From Planctomycetota bacterium (lineage in GTDB: Bacteria > Planctomycetota > Phycisphaerae > UBA1845 > UTPLA1), in contig JAATGM010000051.1 in assembly GCA_015654675.1 (NCBI GenBank), forward strand, positions 62,001-126,000: a stretch of DNA of 64,000 nt, written 5' to 3'. The notes below the pieces were generated by a model, which made no database searches, was not told the origin of the DNA, and was given only the letters and a program-made list of their open reading frames with translations. Both the position numbers and the translations under genes were made by a program. Positions 40,916 to 49,311 of this stretch are shown here, piece after piece; within the stretch, counting starts at the first letter, position 1; every line of letters begins with the position of its first letter.

Positions 40916-40945
40916 TTGACCGGTTAAAGGCCGGCGAGATAGGAT
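40916..40945 (+). promoter_or_regulatory. Candidate promoter for the haloperoxidase-like gene
   Basis: TTGACC, 18-base spacer, TAGGAT; predicted start near 40952, so the in-frame ATG at 40944 would not be transcribed and ATG 40983 is the better start. Confidence 0.4.
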
Positions 40946-40982
40946 GATGACCCTGGGGACCTCGCCGCTCGGAGCCAGCATC

Positions 40983-42434
40983 ATGAATTCACCAAAATTC
41001 ATCGGCCGATGCAGGGTTTTCTCATGCGCGATGGCCGTGACGCTGGGCTTGTCGGCGGGCTGCGTTCCGTGGCAATTTCTACCGGGCGCGGAGTCGGCGG
41101 CGACGGATACGCTGCTGCGGTGGAATGTCATCGCGGTGGACTCGAGCGGGCTTGACCACACGGCGGTTCAACCTGGGGAGAACCGTGTTTTTGGGCATCA
41201 GCTTGGTCCTACTCGCTCGAGCCGGGCGATGGCGATTGTGCATATTGCGATGTTCGACGCGATGAACGCGGTGGTGGGCGGTTTTGAGAGCTATACGCGG
41301 ACGCCCGCTGCGGCACCGACAACGTCTGTCAGGGCGGCCATCGCGCAGGCAGCGCATGACACACTGGTCGCGTTGTTTCCGTCTCACGCGCCGAGGCTCG
41401 ATCAACTATTGGCCGAGGACCTGGACGCCATTCCGGACGGGCTGGCGGAGCAGGACGGGATTGCACTCGGTCAGGAGACGGCGGGGCGGATTCTGGCGAT
41501 GCGGGACGGTGATGGTTCAGAACTGAACGAGCCGTATGTATTCAGCAACGCGCCCGGGGCGTGGCGGGTCGATCCGATCAATCCCGGGCAGCAGCCGCTC
41601 GGGGCAGCGTGGCACAACGTGAAGCCATTTGCGCTGAACAGTGCGACGCAATTCCGTTCGCCGGCGCCACCGGCGTTGACCAGCTCGGAGTACACGAGCG
41701 CGTTTGACGAAGTGAAAGAGCTTGGCGGAGACGGAGTCGTCACGCCGACGATCCGCACTCAGGAGCGGGGTTTCATCGGGATCTATTGGGCGTATGACGG
41801 GACGCCGAGCTTGTGCGCGCCGCCGCGGCTCTACAACCAGATCGCCCGGCAGATCGCGCAGGAACGAAATGTCAGCGGGATTGACCTGGCGCGATTGCTG
41901 GCGCTGGTCAACGTGGCAATGGCGGATGCGGGAATCGCCATTTGGGATTCAAAGTTTCATCACAACTTCTGGCGGCCGGTGACGGGGATTCGCGAGGCCG
42001 ATCCGGGAACCGGGCCGTCCGGGTTGGGTGATGGAAACCCGGACACAGTGGGGGATGTGAACTTCGTTCCGCTGTGCGCGCCGGCGACAAACCTGACGGC
42101 TCCTAATTTCACTCCGCCGTTTCCGGCGTATCCATCCGGGCATGCCGGTTTCGGTGGGGCGCTGTTTGAGACGCTGCGCGACTTTTTCGGGACCGACGAT
42201 ATTGCGTTCACATTTGTATCGGATGAGTTGAACGGGACCACGCACGACAATCAGGGCAATGTCCGGCCGCTGATTCCACGCTCGTTTACGTCGCTCTCGC
42301 AGGCCGAGGAGGAGAACGGGCAGAGCCGCATCTATCTCGGCATCCATTGGCGGTTCGATAAGACGGAGGGGATCTCGATGGGCCGCAAGGTGGCGGACCA
42401 TGTGTTCAATCACGCGTTTCAGCCGGCGCCCTGA
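40983..42434 (+). CDS. Vanadium-dependent haloperoxidase-like / PAP2-type lipoprotein
   Basis: The protein is 483 residues with a signal sequence ending LSAGC, a lipobox. The PAP2/haloperoxidase active-site motifs are present in order: KFHHNFWRP (Lys and Arg, 324-331), YPSGHAGF (384-387 PSGH) and RIYLGIHWRFD (Arg449, His455). These bind vanadate in haloperoxidases or phosphate in phosphatases. The spacing and the N-terminal helical half fit bacterial vanadium haloperoxidase-like proteins. Whether it oxidises halide or acts as a phosphatase cannot be told. The 3' end overlaps the convergent NADAR gene by 16 bases. Confidence 0.82.
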   Translation: MNSPKFIGRCRVFSCAMAVTLGLSAGCVPWQFLPGAESAATDTLLRWNVIAVDSSGLDHTAVQPGENRVFGHQLGPTRSSRAMAIVHIAMFDAMNAVVGGFESYTRTPAAAPTTSVRAAIAQAAHDTLVALFPSHAPRLDQLLAEDLDAIPDGLAEQDGIALGQETAGRILAMRDGDGSELNEPYVFSNAPGAWRVDPINPGQQPLGAAWHNVKPFALNSATQFRSPAPPALTSSEYTSAFDEVKELGGDGVVTPTIRTQERGFIGIYWAYDGTPSLCAPPRLYNQIARQIAQERNVSGIDLARLLALVNVAMADAGIAIWDSKFHHNFWRPVTGIREADPGTGPSGLGDGNPDTVGDVNFVPLCAPATNLTAPNFTPPFPAYPSGHAGFGGALFETLRDFFGTDDIAFTFVSDELNGTTHDNQGNVRPLIPRSFTSLSQAEEENGQSRIYLGIHWRFDKTEGISMGRKVADHVFNHAFQPAP

Positions 42435-43018
42435 GATGTCGGACGACTAACCGCCGGCTGAGTGGTTGGCGCATTGCGCAGCTCGGTCCTGATTTTCATC
42501 AGAATCTTTCCCAGCCGGTTTTCGCCCTGACCCCGGTAGACGCCCCACGTGCGATCGCCCCAGGTGTTGCCCTCGATCAGTTCGGTATCGCCGGTCGCGA
42601 GCAGTTTGGCGCGGAGCTCGGCGTGGCGCGTGAATTTGTCGCGGACGACAGTTTCCATCACCTTGAATTTCTCAGTATCCCAGTTGGGGCGGAGCTTGAG
42701 GGCTGCGCCGGCCTTTTTGGCGGCGGACGGCGTGGGAAGCGCGGCGATGCGCTTTCGTTCAGTCGGGTCGAGCGACTTGGCGGCCTGGTAGGCATGTTCG
42801 GACGAGGGGTAGATGACTCCCTCGAATTGGACTTTGGCCGGCCAGAAATTGGAGAGGAAGCGGTATTCGCCTTGGAACTCGGGAATCGAGTTCGACTGCG
42901 TTGATGGTTTTGGCTGCGTCGCCGGGGCGTCATGCGGGACCTGTCCGGCGCAGAATCCGGCGGACGCCGAGGCGAGTAGGAAGATCAGCGTGCTCGATCG
43001 TGAGGTGGTGAATTGCAT
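42419..43018 (-). CDS. NADAR-family protein with signal peptide
   Basis: The protein is 199 residues from ATG 43018; ATG 43066 would add 16 residues. A hydrophobic leader (SSTLIFLLASASAGFCAG) precedes a Pro/Gln/Thr linker and a full NADAR (YbiA-like) domain: EYRFLSNFWPAKVQF, YPSSEHAYQAAK and NTWGDRTWGVYRGQGENRLG. Known NADAR proteins are cytoplasmic N-glycosidases that act on riboflavin intermediates or remove ADP-ribose from guanine. An exported form would not meet these substrates, so the role is open. It converges on the haloperoxidase gene and is divergent from mtnP, 98 bases apart. Confidence 0.8.
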   Translation of the reverse strand: MQFTTSRSSTLIFLLASASAGFCAGQVPHDAPATQPKPSTQSNSIPEFQGEYRFLSNFWPAKVQFEGVIYPSSEHAYQAAKSLDPTERKRIAALPTPSAAKKAGAALKLRPNWDTEKFKVMETVVRDKFTRHAELRAKLLATGDTELIEGNTWGDRTWGVYRGQGENRLGKILMKIRTELRNAPTTQPAVSRPTSQGAG

Positions 43019-43116
43019 CGAGTGCGGATTATTAACGGGGTTCGGGGCGGCGTCGACGCGACCCATGGAAGGCGATACGATTTTGGCCGAACGGGGAGTC
43101 GGATTGGAGCGTGCGA

Positions 43117-44031
43117 GTGGCGCATTCGTCGAGAATTCTGGTCGGCATCATTGGCGGGTCGGGGTTCGGCCAGGCGCTGACGTCGCAGGCGGGGGGCAAG
43201 GCCGAGCGGGTCGAGACGCCGTTTGGGCCGCCCAGCGCACCGATTGTGCGGACGCAGATGGACGGGGTTGAGATCGCTTTCCTTCCCCGGCATGGCGATG
43301 GGCATATTTATCCACCCACGGCCGTTCCGTATCGGGCGAATATCTTTGCGCTGAAGGCACTGGGTTGCACGCACATCATTGCGAGCGGCGCTACCGGGAG
43401 TTTGCGCGAGGAGATTCGGCCGGGCGATCTGGTTGTGCCGGACCAGGTGATCGATCGAACCTTTCGCCGGGCATCGAGTTTTTTCGACGAAGCGGGGATT
43501 GTGGCGCACGTCGAATTTTCGCATCCGTTCTGCCCCGTGCTGCGTCGGACGCTGCTGGCCTCACGCGATGCGGTCGACACGACCGTACATGACGCGGGGA
43601 CGTATGTGTGTATGGAGGGGCCGGCGTTTTCGACGGCGGCCGAGAGCCGGGCGCATCGGAGCTGGGGTGGCGACCTGATCGGCATGACCTGCATGCCCGA
43701 AGCGAAGCTGGCGCGGGAGGCGGAGCTTTGTTACGGACTGGTGGCGCTGCCGACGGACTATGACTGCTGGCGGCCGCATGATCCGAGCATGGACAAGGTC
43801 GCGCTTTTGAATGAAATCATCCAGAATCTGAATCGAGTGACCGATTATTCGATCAAACTTGTCCGATCGGCGCTGCAACGAATCGCGACGGAAGGATTGC
43901 CGCCGTGTGAATGCCAGAAGAGTCTGGATCTTGCGGTCTGGTCGAACATGGCCAAAGTGCCGCGCGCGGCGATAGATAAACTGCGACCCATCCTCAGCCG
44001 CCGACTGGCGAACCAGGGAACAGGAGCATAA
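43117..44031 (+). CDS. mtnP: S-methyl-5'-thioadenosine phosphorylase (or related purine nucleoside phosphorylase)
   Basis: The protein is about 304 residues from GTG 43117, which has GGAG 7 bases upstream; GTG 43111 is also in frame. It splits methylthioadenosine with phosphate into adenine and methylthioribose 1-phosphate. VGIIGGSGF, PRHGDGHIYPPT, SGATGSLREEI, MEGPAFSTAAESR and the purine-site TDYDCW are typical of MtnP-type enzymes, and TDYDCW favours the MTA form over inosine/guanosine phosphorylases. apt follows after 4 bases, with its ribosome site inside the short spacer, supporting a salvage unit. Confidence 0.87.
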   Translation: MAHSSRILVGIIGGSGFGQALTSQAGGKAERVETPFGPPSAPIVRTQMDGVEIAFLPRHGDGHIYPPTAVPYRANIFALKALGCTHIIASGATGSLREEIRPGDLVVPDQVIDRTFRRASSFFDEAGIVAHVEFSHPFCPVLRRTLLASRDAVDTTVHDAGTYVCMEGPAFSTAAESRAHRSWGGDLIGMTCMPEAKLAREAELCYGLVALPTDYDCWRPHDPSMDKVALLNEIIQNLNRVTDYSIKLVRSALQRIATEGLPPCECQKSLDLAVWSNMAKVPRAAIDKLRPILSRRLANQGTGA

Positions 44032-44035
44032 TTCG

Positions 44036-44620
44036 ATGCTGACGAGCGACCGACCCGATACCGCGCGCCGAGCGATGCCGAGCCCATCACTATCGATCGC
44101 GAGCGCAGAGGATCTCAAGAAGCGCATTCGCGACATTCCCGACTTTCCCAAGAAGGGGATTGTCTTCAAGGATATCACGCCGTTGCTGGCTGATCCGAGC
44201 GCGCTTTCGATGGCGGTGGAGTTTCTGACGCAACCGTATCGAAATGCCGGTGTCGAACTGGTGATCGGGGCCGAGTCGCGCGGGTTTATTTTCGCGACGG
44301 CTGTGGCTCGAAATCTGTCGGCCGGATTTGTGCCGATCCGCAAGCCCGGGAAGCTGCCGAGCAAGACGCATTCGGCTTCGTATGAGCTCGAATACGGTAC
44401 GGATAGTCTGGAGATTCACCTTGATGCGATTCGGCCGGGCGCGCGGGTGCTGATGATCGACGACCTGCTGGCGACAGGTGGCACGATGGCGGCCTGCTGC
44501 GATCTGGTCGAGTCGCTGAAGGGGAATATTGTCGGGGTGGCCTTCTTGATCGAGCTCGCATTCCTGAATGGCCGGGAGAAGCTCGGGAAGTATCCGATTC
44601 ATCGCGTGATCCAGTACTAA
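44036..44620 (+). CDS. apt: Adenine phosphoribosyltransferase
   Basis: The protein is 194 residues, with AGGAG upstream of ATG 44036. It converts adenine and PRPP to AMP. The N-terminal IRDIPDFPKKGIVFKDITPLL and the PRPP loop VLMIDDLLATGGTM are diagnostic. The first 20 residues extend beyond the usual 170-180 residue enzyme; an internal ATG at MPSPSLSI could be the true start. It uses the adenine released by MtnP. Confidence 0.95.
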   Translation: MLTSDRPDTARRAMPSPSLSIASAEDLKKRIRDIPDFPKKGIVFKDITPLLADPSALSMAVEFLTQPYRNAGVELVIGAESRGFIFATAVARNLSAGFVPIRKPGKLPSKTHSASYELEYGTDSLEIHLDAIRPGARVLMIDDLLATGGTMAACCDLVESLKGNIVGVAFLIELAFLNGREKLGKYPIHRVIQY

Positions 44621-44919: not shown

Positions 44920-47900
44920 ATGTTCAATCGCAATCGTTCCGTCACCGCTTCGATTTGCTGCTGCGCCCGGATGGCGCTGGCGACGCTGCTGGTTTCGAGC
45001 GCGGTCAGTGCCGTACAACCGCAGGCCTCGCGTATTCGATTCCGAAGCGGCGAGGTGGCGACGTCGCACAAGGCGGAGCCGGAGCTTGCGGCGGCGGGCA
45101 GTGCGGTGGTTCGGGCGGGCGGGGCGCACTTTGTCGTGCAGTTCAGCCAGCCCGTTACGGATGAAGTCCGCCAGAAGTTGAACGCGGCGGGCGTGACGCT
45201 GGACGAGTATGTGGGCGACAACGCGTACTTCGCGACGCGCGAGATGAATTTCAGCGCGACGGCGCTGTCGCGGGTCGCGACGGTGCAGGACGTGCTTCCG
45301 ATGCAGTCGGACTGGAAGCTGCATACGGCTTTCCTCCGCAATACGCTTCCGCCGTGGGCCGTGAAGCGCAATGTGGCACAACTGGGGCAGCTTTCGGAGG
45401 AGCAGCGCAAGCTCCTGAAGCCAGAGCAGCGCAATGGCACGCCGGCCGGCGAGGAGCAGGTTGCCGCATACATCATGTTTCACAAAGACGTGCCGCTGAA
45501 TCCGAATGGCGTCAATATCGCGCTTCGGCATGGGGCGGTCGTTCGATCGGTGCTGAACGGGATCAATGCGCTCGTGATCGAAATGCCGCTGGCGAATGTG
45601 CAGGTGCTGGCGGGAGAAGACGAGGTTCAGTGGATTGAGCCGCCGCTGCCGAGTCTGACGGCCGTGAATGACGGCAATCGCGCGCGGACCGGGGCGGACA
45701 TCGCCCAGGCCGCCCCTTACAACCTGAGCGGCGCCGGCGTTTCGGTGCTTGTCTACGACGGCGGGCTGATCCGAACGACGCACGTCGATTTTCAAGGCCG
45801 CGCCGTCAACGGACCCGAGCCGGCCTGCGAGACGCTGGCGGACCACTCGACGCACGTGGCCGGGACGATCGGCGGCGGAGGCGTTGCCAATCCAAACATG
45901 AAGGGAATGGCGCCGGGCGTAACGATCGTCGGGCATGCGCTCAATCAGGGCGGCGGCTGCAGTCTTTCGCAGGGCTTTCTCTATACAGATCCGGGCGACA
46001 TGCAGGCCGACTACACGGACGCCATCACGAACTTTGGCGCCGACATTGCGAATAACTCGATCGGAACCAACACAGCGCCGAACGGTTATCCGTGCGACTG
46101 GGAAGGTGACTATGGCGTGACCGATGTGCTGATTGACAGCATCGTTCGAGGCACGCCGGGCATTGCGAACGGGCAGCCGTTCCGCATCGTGTGGGCCAAC
46201 GGCAATGAGCGCAACAGCGGACGTTGCGGGACGACCTATCACACGACCGCGCCGCCGGCTTGCGCCAAGAATCATATTACGGTTGGCGCTTTGAACTCGA
46301 ATGACGACTCGGTGACCGCATTCACCAGTTGGGGCCCGGCGGATGACGGCCGAATGAAGCCCGATCTTTCGGGGCCGGGCTGCCAGGTTGGCGGCGATGG
46401 CGGCGTGACTTCGTGCTCGGCGAGCAGCGATACGTCATACACCGTGTTCTGCGGGACTTCGATGGCGTCGCCGACGGTTTGCGGATTGAGCGCGCTGCTG
46501 ATTCAGGACTTCCGCACGCAGTTTCCGTCGCGGCCTGATCCGCGTAACTCAACGTTGAAAATCCTGCTTGCGCAGACAGCGGTCGATCTGTTCAACACTG
46601 GTCCGGACTACCAGACCGGCTACGGCTCGGTTCGCATCCAGCCGGCCATCGACTTCATGCGGACGGGTAATTTCCTGGAGAACTCTGTTTCGCAGGGGCA
46701 GAGCTACAACGTGCTGGTGCTGGTGAACCCGGGCGACCCGATGATGAAGGTTACCCTGGCATGGGACGACGCCCCTGGAACGCCTAACGTGGACCCGGCG
46801 CTGGTGAACGACCTCGATCTGGTGGTGTTCGATCCGTCGAATAACCAGCGATTCCCGTGGACGCTGGATCCGGCTAATCCGGCCAATGCCGCAGTGCAGA
46901 CGCAGGCGAATCATCGGGACAACATCGAGCAGGTTGCCATTCCGAATCCGGCTCCCGGTGTGTATCGCATCGAGGTACGCGGGTTCAACGTGCCGAACGG
47001 GCCGCAGGCGTTCTCGCTGTGCGGTTCGCCGCAACTGATCAATTGCTCGCGGGCGGGCGTGATTGTGCTCGACCGACAGAAATATCCGTGTGCATCGAGC
47101 GCGACCATCCGCGTGATCGACTGCGATTTGAACCAGAACGACAATGTGATCGAGACCGTAAGCGTCAACATTTCATCCACGAGCGAGCCGGGCGGCGAGA
47201 CCGTGCTGCTGACCGAGACGGGCGCCCAGACGGCTGCGTTTGCCGGCACCATTCCGCTGAGCACGACCAACGCGGTGGGAACGCTCAAGATCGCGAACGG
47301 CGACACGATTACTGCAAAGTACGTGGACGCTGACGACGGCCAGGGACATACCAACGTGAACGTCCTGGCGACGGCGACGGTAGATTGCGTCGCACCGCTT
47401 ATTTCGAACGTTCAGACGATCAATATTGCTCCGCGGAAGGCGACGGTGACGTTCAATACGAATGAACCGGCGAACGGGACGGTTCGCTGGGGGACGAGTT
47501 GCGGGTCACTGTCGAACACCGTGGCGGGAAGCGGCCTGAATACGTCGCACAGCATGAATATCACGGGGCTCAGCCCATCGACGACCTATTACTATGCGAT
47601 CGATGCGACTGATGCGGCGGGTAACCCCGCAACCGACAACAACGGTGGATCGTGCTACTCGTTCTCGACGCCGGTCGTGCCGGACTTTTTCACTGAGATT
47701 TTCGAGTCGAACGATAATGACCTCGATAACCGGCAGATTCTGTTTACGCCGGATGCGAGCGTCAGCCGGTACAAAGCGTGCTCGTTTGCGAGCGTGGCAC
47801 TTCCGACCGATCCGACGGGCGGAACGCAGATCACGACCTGGAATGGCACGTCCGACGACGGCAACGCGCTGGTGACGCTCAGCGGCGGTGCGAGTGTGAA

Positions 47901-49311
47901 GCTCTATGGCGTGAGCTATGGCAGTTTCTATGTCACGACGAACGGCTACCTCACCTTTACCGCCGGCGAGACGGCTTACCTCGAATCGTTGGCCACACAC
48001 TTTGCGGCGCCGCGGGTTGCAGCGTTGTTTGACGATCTAACCGCCGGCGCGGGCGGTTCGGTAAGCTGGAAGCAGCTTGGCGACCGCGTGGCCGTGACCT
48101 GGCTGAACATTCCCGAATACAACACGACGAATCAGAACACGATTCAGATCGAAATGTATTTCGACGGACGGATCAGCTTGAACTATCTCTCGGTCGCCGC
48201 GACGGATGGTCTGGCTGGACTCTCCGACGGCTCGGGTCTCTCGGTCGATTTTTCGGAATCCGATTTGACAGCCCTCACGGGCGGCTGCGGTCCGCTGCCG
48301 CCTTCGGCCGCGGGCGTGAGCGACAGCGTCGCGGTGAACACGATCAAGTCCGTGACGCTGGCGGCCACTGACCCGAATGGCGACCCGATGACCTTCAAGA
48401 TCACGTCATTGCCGCCGCATGGGTCGCTTAAGGACCCGAATGGCGCAGTCATCACGAGCGTGCCTTACACGTTGCTGCTGAGCGGCAATCAGGTGTTGTA
48501 CAAGGGAGCGCTGAATTATCAGGGTACTGACGGCTTCCAGTACAAAGCGAACGACGGCACCTTCGATTCGAATACTGCAACGGTGGCAATGACAGTGGGC
48601 GGGCCGCAGCCGATCTACACGTTCCCCATGGACTCGAACCCCGGCTGGAGCGTGCAGGGGCAGTGGGCCTTTGGCGTGCCGGCGGGCGGCGGCTCGCACA
48701 ACCACGACCCGAGCGGCGGATACACCGGCACGAATGTATATGGTTTCAACCTGGCCGGTGATTACACCGACAATATGGCCGCACCACTGTACCTCACGAC
48801 CACGGCGTTCAATTGCACGGGCGTGACCGGCACGCAACTCCGGTTCCGACGGCGATTGGGCGTCGAATCCTCGCAGTACGACCATGCGACCATTGACGTC
48901 TCGACGAACGGGACGACGTGGACCAACGTCTGGAATCACTCCGGCGCGGCACTCGACGAGGCCGGCTGGTCGCTGCAACAGTACAGCCTGCTTTCGGCCG
49001 ACAATCAGCCAACGGTCTATATCCGCTGGGGCATGGGTCCGACCGACGGCTCCGTGACCTATCCGGGCTGGAACATCGACGACGTGGAAATCCTCGGGCT
49101 GACGCCGCTTTCGTGCGGTGCGGTTATTCCGGGCGACACGAACGGCGATGGAAAGGTCAATGGCGCCGACGTGCAGAGCTTCAGTCGCGTGTTCGTTGAT
49201 CCGTTCCTGGCCAGTGCGGCCGAGGGCTGTGCGGCGGACGTCAATCAGGACAACGCCCTGACGGCGGCTGACTTCCCGGCCATGGTGCAGAAGCTGCTGA
49301 CGACGCCCTGA
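44920..49311 (+). CDS. Giant secreted subtilisin-like serine protease with dockerin-like tail
   Basis: The protein is 1463 residues. A signal peptide (ALATLLVSSAVSA, cut near residue 31) is followed by a pro-region to about 245. The S8 catalytic domain has Asp280 (VLVYDGG), His309 (DHSTHVAGTIGG) and Ser514 (GTSMASPTVCG). After the catalytic domain come a P/pro-protein convertase-like beta domain (to about 700), Ig-like and FN3-like modules (one at about 825-910), a cadherin-like bridge (PPSAAGVSDSVAVN), a ConA/MAM-like lectin domain around 1230-1390 and two EF-hand loops (DTNGDGKVNGAD, DVNQDNALTAAD). It is probably a surface or secreted protein-degrading enzyme of a nutrient-foraging cell. 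Confidence 0.88.
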   Translation: MFNRNRSVTASICCCARMALATLLVSSAVSAVQPQASRIRFRSGEVATSHKAEPELAAAGSAVVRAGGAHFVVQFSQPVTDEVRQKLNAAGVTLDEYVGDNAYFATREMNFSATALSRVATVQDVLPMQSDWKLHTAFLRNTLPPWAVKRNVAQLGQLSEEQRKLLKPEQRNGTPAGEEQVAAYIMFHKDVPLNPNGVNIALRHGAVVRSVLNGINALVIEMPLANVQVLAGEDEVQWIEPPLPSLTAVNDGNRARTGADIAQAAPYNLSGAGVSVLVYDGGLIRTTHVDFQGRAVNGPEPACETLADHSTHVAGTIGGGGVANPNMKGMAPGVTIVGHALNQGGGCSLSQGFLYTDPGDMQADYTDAITNFGADIANNSIGTNTAPNGYPCDWEGDYGVTDVLIDSIVRGTPGIANGQPFRIVWANGNERNSGRCGTTYHTTAPPACAKNHITVGALNSNDDSVTAFTSWGPADDGRMKPDLSGPGCQVGGDGGVTSCSASSDTSYTVFCGTSMASPTVCGLSALLIQDFRTQFPSRPDPRNSTLKILLAQTAVDLFNTGPDYQTGYGSVRIQPAIDFMRTGNFLENSVSQGQSYNVLVLVNPGDPMMKVTLAWDDAPGTPNVDPALVNDLDLVVFDPSNNQRFPWTLDPANPANAAVQTQANHRDNIEQVAIPNPAPGVYRIEVRGFNVPNGPQAFSLCGSPQLINCSRAGVIVLDRQKYPCASSATIRVIDCDLNQNDNVIETVSVNISSTSEPGGETVLLTETGAQTAAFAGTIPLSTTNAVGTLKIANGDTITAKYVDADDGQGHTNVNVLATATVDCVAPLISNVQTINIAPRKATVTFNTNEPANGTVRWGTSCGSLSNTVAGSGLNTSHSMNITGLSPSTTYYYAIDATDAAGNPATDNNGGSCYSFSTPVVPDFFTEIFESNDNDLDNRQILFTPDASVSRYKACSFASVALPTDPTGGTQITTWNGTSDDGNALVTLSGGASVKLYGVSYGSFYVTTNGYLTFTAGETAYLESLATHFAAPRVAALFDDLTAGAGGSVSWKQLGDRVAVTWLNIPEYNTTNQNTIQIEMYFDGRISLNYLSVAATDGLAGLSDGSGLSVDFSESDLTALTGGCGPLPPSAAGVSDSVAVNTIKSVTLAATDPNGDPMTFKITSLPPHGSLKDPNGAVITSVPYTLLLSGNQVLYKGALNYQGTDGFQYKANDGTFDSNTATVAMTVGGPQPIYTFPMDSNPGWSVQGQWAFGVPAGGGSHNHDPSGGYTGTNVYGFNLAGDYTDNMAAPLYLTTTAFNCTGVTGTQLRFRRRLGVESSQYDHATIDVSTNGTTWTNVWNHSGAALDEAGWSLQQYSLLSADNQPTVYIRWGMGPTDGSVTYPGWNIDDVEILGLTPLSCGAVIPGDTNGDGKVNGADVQSFSRVFVDPFLASAAEGCAADVNQDNALTAADFPAMVQKLLTTP

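Follow-up and report, generated by a model that had tools for sequence, protein, structure and literature searches.

What is a NADAR domain doing behind a hydrophobic leader? In the accessible part of the literature, NADARs act on cytoplasmic or nuclear substrates, and an exported clade would differ from them. The question is raised by one gene within the DNA considered here (the window, a stretch of 64,000 nucleotides from a Planctomycetota bacterium). An earlier note, made from the sequence alone, had read in this gene a complete NADAR domain preceded by a hydrophobic leader and a Pro-rich linker, and had suggested that an exported member could act on extracellular ADP-ribosylated targets or serve in competition or defense. 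The features of the locus are collected in Table 1.

Table 1. Features of the NADAR gene and its neighbors, in window coordinates
Feature	Position	Strand	Basis or remark
Putative exported NADAR protein	42419..43018	-	199 aa; ATG at 43018, stop 42421-42419
Leader, residues 1-22 (MQFTTSRSSTLIFLLASASAGF)	42953..43018	-	Single Arg, hydrophobic stretch after it; sequence comparison and hydrophobicity
Cys23	42950..42952	-	Aligns with the leader-end Cys of 6/6 homologs; residue -1 is Phe
Pro/Thr/Ser/Gln-rich linker, residues 24-44	42887..42949	-	Alignment and low model confidence
NADAR (YbiA-type) domain, residues 45-182	42473..42886	-	Pfam, alignment, AlphaFold model, Foldseek
Glu74, first catalytic residue (SSEHAYQAAK)	42797..42799	-	Invariant column; role per PMC11543638
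Lys81, second catalytic residue	42776..42778	-	Invariant column; role per PMC11543638
Glu149, aligned with the YbiA-family glutamate	42572..42574	-	Alignment; PMC11125620
C-terminal tail, residues 183-199, without conservation	42422..42472	-	Alignment and model
Weak sigma-70-like site TCGACG-17-AATAAT	43028..43056	-	Consensus match only
S-methyl-5'-thioadenosine phosphorylase (MTAP), divergent neighbor	43111..44031	+	TIGR01694, over cut-off
Adenine phosphoribosyltransferase (APRT), neighbor	44036..44620	+	TIGR01090, over cut-off
Vanadium haloperoxidase/PAP2-like protein, convergent neighbor	40944..42434	+	Under Pfam cut-offs

A YbiA-type NADAR domain

The domain is as it had been described. 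All three of its motifs (FLSNFWP, SSEHAYQAAK, and NTWGDRTWG) lie on the minus strand where the earlier note had placed them, and the protein matches Pfam NADAR (PF08719) with an E-value of 6.8e-29 and 101.7 bits, against a gathering score of 35.1. The match to TIGR02464 (NCBIfam), the N-glycosidase of riboflavin intermediates, exceeds the cut-off as well; NF053876, the NADAR family anti-phage protein, is failed, at 52.3 bits vs a cut-off of 240. AlphaFold gives a confident model of a NADAR fold for the domain (pLDDT about 98), with values of 55-61 in the leader and the linker, and residues 24-44 are likely disordered. Foldseek, given the domain model, finds E. coli YbiA (2b3w, E 6e-12) and the ADP-ribose-bound NADAR of Phytophthora (8bau, E 1.5e-7); the match to the G. 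lovleyi NADAR (8bat, E 1.1) is not significant. This gene is the sole NADAR found in its own genome, and there are no Rfam matches within the window.

E74, K81, and E149 are invariant across 28 sequences, and the E-x6-K motif is present. PMC11543638 describes the catalytic roles of the Glu and the Lys in the NADAR family, and in PMC11125620 the mark of the YbiA subfamily is a third catalytic residue that is Glu rather than Asp or His. Since the third residue here is Glu149, the protein belongs with YbiA and not with the DarT1 antitoxins. It is probably an N-glycosidase in activity.

The leader

Taken alone, the leader is weak evidence for export. Its hydrophobicity is reached by about 5% of stop-free 44-codon stretches drawn at random from this GC-rich window, and by 106 of 20,000 sequences made by shuffling its residues. 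The stronger evidence comes from its relatives. Six homologs from the same taxonomic family, 55-66% identical to the window protein, end their leaders in VAGC, MAHC, VSSC, LTGC, LCGC, and LMGC, so that leader and aligned Cys are found in all six. Under a uniform leader test, exactly eight of 118 NADAR loci showed a strong hydrophobic leader: the seven members of this clade and one shortened relative, L010. It is because the homologs carry leader and Cys, while every one of the 110 other bacterial NADAR loci put to the same test lacks a strong leader, that I judge the leader to be real. The hydrophobic leader and the Pro-rich linker are thus where the earlier note had seen them, and its own concern, that homologs might start after the leader and the leader be out of frame or untranslated, has been answered by six leadered homologs and an in-frame leader in the window.

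No credible leader was found among 80 viral NADARs. One of these (L173) passed the hydrophobicity filter, the segment lying some 75-109 residues upstream of the domain, too far to count. Three plasmid NADARs whose match extended into the leader region were also set aside on their annotation: in H2 and H13 the domain sits toward the end of a longer protein, and H7 is the opening part of a long one.

Might the leader be an artifact of the choice of start codon? There are two candidate starts. The ATG at 43018 agrees with the start positions of the homologs, and the alternative, an ATG at 43066, would lengthen the protein by 16 residues with the leader still inside it. Between leader and domain the window gene has no in-frame ATG, GTG, or TTG, and a leaderless domain would therefore require a non-standard start, so the artifact is rejected for this gene. 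By their listed starts, the homologs of G011, G009, and G013 likewise have none of these codons between leader and domain.

One might still suppose that the leader is never used, and that this is a cytoplasmic YbiA enzyme acting on riboflavin intermediates. The match to TIGR02464 fits that supposition, as does the cytoplasmic location of known NADAR substrates (PMC11125620). It has to contend, however, with the window gene's want of a standard start between leader and domain, with a Cys and a lipobox that most of the clade conserves, and with the positive charge on the N-terminal side, which would place the domain outside even if the leader remained as an uncleaved anchor. I regard a cytoplasmic location as quite improbable, and the window protein as very probably exported. 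Since the leader is shared by the clade, the enzyme probably acts outside the cytoplasm.

The way in which the leaders have diverged is consistent with export. Leader and linker together are 36% identical between G013 and G002 and 29% between G009 and G015, with hydrophobicity and Cys kept. Free change within these bounds is the pattern one would expect of a working signal sequence.

Cys23 and possible lipid anchoring

In a canonical lipobox (PROSITE PS51257), Ala, Gly, or Ser occupies position -1 of the Cys. The leader ends in Cys in all seven members of the clade, a feature that goes beyond what the earlier note had observed, and the lipobox is canonical in five of them (G011, G009, G013, G015, and G002). 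The two failures are both at -1, Phe in the window protein (AGFC) and His in G008 (MAHC). Both have an AxA site immediately ahead of the Cys motif and so may instead be processed by signal peptidase I; by inspection, ASA|GF is a possible cleavage site in the window protein. With Phe at -1, the window copy would be exported either as an atypical lipoprotein or in soluble form. In most of the clade, the conserved Cys speaks more for anchoring by lipid than for free secretion. The window's own genome has a gene for signal peptidase II (PF01252, E 5.5e-29). Despite that gene, the same genome gives no Pfam match to LolA.

One clade, patchily distributed

In a tree of 113 NADARs the seven proteins with a leader group together as a single clade (SH-aLRT 98), as they do in a tree of 122 that includes viral sequences (SH-aLRT 93). 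In both trees the clade lies inside the YbiA-type NADARs. That the seven form a single clade argues for a single gain of the export signal, and the simplest reading is that a cytosolic enzyme gained the leader once. Origin from a particular phage NADAR was considered and rejected: phage NADARs and the nearest bacterial ones are equally close, and the tree offers no sister group. The 113-NADAR tree also holds a clade of four close paralogs (L025, L029, L033, and L041), found on separate contigs of one Bryobacterales MAG.

The search for other leadered NADARs that the earlier note had suggested yielded six full homologs and one remnant, and no neighbor is retained throughout the clade. Seven of the family's 17 genomes carry a member of the clade, a patchiness that suggests its function is dispensable. 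The remnant belongs to a further genome of the order, G019, where a lipoprotein-type leader (LSALFALLLPGGC) is joined to the last 50 or so NADAR residues (L010:1321-1644 / L019:6887-7171). In L010, from another family of the same order, little of the domain survives, and the first two catalytic residues are gone.

Where the domain is whole it appears to be under purifying selection, with dN/dS of 0.19 (G013 vs G002) and 0.14 (G009 vs G015), ratios that are rough, synonymous sites being near saturation in some pair comparisons. Catalytic residues under selection, joined to an export signal, imply a substrate outside the cytoplasm, whether ribosylated small molecules or nucleotides or nucleic acid bearing ADP-ribose. 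In the pair G013/G002 (L006/L008), dS of the NADAR gene is 1.1, about twice that of the flanking genes (0.45-0.54), which could reflect exchange between lineages or the noise of a short gene.

Neighboring genes

The haloperoxidase/PAP2-like neighbor has a lipobox-like leader of its own (LSAGC), and the 3' ends of the two convergent genes overlap by 16 bases. Elsewhere in the clade, the NADAR gene has as neighbor an SsnA-like aminohydrolase in G011 (just below the family cut-off), a PTPS/QueD-like protein in G013 and G002, which belong to one genus (Pfam, over cut-off), and in G009 and G015 an aminotransferase resembling methionine aminotransferases (under cut-offs). The remnant in G019 adjoins a selenium-dependent xanthine dehydrogenase (over cut-off). 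These neighbors lean weakly toward purine, pterin, and methionine salvage. The theme was noticed post hoc, and I take it as no more than a lead. Comparison of flanking genes across the clade loci found no neighbor common to the whole clade. A conserved operon is rejected, since sharing is limited to pairs (the PTPS-like gene in G013/G002; the aminotransferase and MutS in G009/G015).

Two other loci deserve mention. At 44920-49311 (+) the window encodes a subtilase with a dockerin, 48% identical over about 715 residues to a protein of the G019 locus (L143), which lies about 14 kb from the NADAR remnant; the likeness is probably that of a multi-copy family rather than synteny. In G012, of the same family, a NADAR is fused to a DUF1156/HmaB-type DNA methylase (L020:8834-12574), near an HmaA-like helicase, an HmaC-like DUF499 ATPase, and an IetS-like subtilase. 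Its NADAR domain passes NF053876 (268.9 bits vs 240), and the locus is a defense island.

What might an exported NADAR do?

The window's own genome, about 96% complete, has no match to DarT (PF14487), and no toxin or ART domain was found among the flanking genes scanned. A toxin-antitoxin reading is rejected on these grounds. The same results, and the want of a conserved neighbor, bear on the proposal of the earlier note: its exported NADAR is supported by the clade-wide leader, and the roles it had offered for one, in competition, defense, or action on extracellular ADP-ribosylated targets, have gained no direct support.

I propose that a Sec-type leader carries a NADAR N-glycosidase across the inner membrane, that lipid on the conserved Cys would tether the enzyme in most of the clade, and that the short, flexible linker would keep the YbiA-type domain off the membrane. 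There E74, K81, and E149 would most likely hydrolyze the N-glycosidic bond joining ribose (ribose phosphate or ADP-ribose) to a nucleobase-like amine, as in cytosolic NADARs. The likeliest use would be the periplasmic clearing or salvage of such N-ribosyl small molecules, or of ADP-ribosylated guanine in nucleotides or DNA. My belief and my doubt in this account as a whole are about equal. The choice of substrate is a guess, and any one compound that might be named is rather unlikely to be the right one.

Alternatively, the enzyme may shield the surface, stripping ADP-ribose that secreted ADP-ribosyltransferase toxins of competitors have placed on extracellular or incoming DNA and nucleotides. 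In PMC11125620 every NADAR tested removes ADP-ribose from guanosine, and secreted ARTs that modify guanine do exist (Scabin and ScARP). The clade is patchy, as defense traits often are, and in G013/G002 the NADAR diverges faster than its neighbors. Yet the scanned flanking genes hold no ART, toxin, or defense gene, and the score of 52 against the anti-phage family is far from its cut-off of 240. A shield of this kind seems improbable to me.

Nor does it seem likely, and to much the same degree, that the domain took on a new function once outside, binding where it formerly cleaved or turning to another substrate, for instance an envelope component or a nucleoside antibiotic. Such a change would sit well with a neighborhood that has no tie to a known substrate. 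It sits badly with purifying selection on the domain, and with a NADAR core that is invariant, its three catalytic residues included.

Periplasmic clearing or salvage by an anchored enzyme is the account I prefer. That Planctomycetota have an exported, mostly lipid-anchored NADAR that undoes ADP-ribosylation or splits N-ribosyl compounds in the periplasm or at the surface is a tentative claim, which I would sooner question than assert. If it is true, extracytoplasmic (ADP-)ribosylation of nucleobases would be a real process in these bacteria. Expression of so small a domain should be easy, which makes the question of a non-cytosolic NADAR substrate directly testable.

Comparison with known systems

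The roles given to NADARs in the accessible literature are riboflavin detoxification, antitoxins to DarT1 and YarT, phage proteins, and nematode splicing. No description of an exported NADAR, DUF1768, or YbiA lipoprotein was found there, in a body of text with few of the subscription papers and none of the bioRxiv preprints. The anti-phage protein of NF053876 (DS32_2) is of the same domain family as the window protein, which scores far under its cut-off. The NADARs associated with DarT1 (the BC4488 family; G. lovleyi 8bat) belong to the same superfamily and differ in their third catalytic residue, which is Asp, in their DarT partner, and in a fold extended at the N-terminus. Closer in form is the myxobacterial YarT-YbiA pair, whose YbiA-type domain is equally compact; in PMC11125620 the pair is described as intracellular and the YbiA gene adjoins a toxin gene, whereas none was seen at the window locus. 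The closest domain sequences are those of stand-alone NADARs of phage and bacteria (such as L153 and L092), about 50-60% identical to that of the window and, unlike it, without a credible leader. E. coli YbiA (2b3w) also lacks the leader, the linker, and the leader-end Cys; what it has in common with the window protein is the fold, the catalytic Glu/Lys/Glu, and a match to TIGR02464 over the cut-off.
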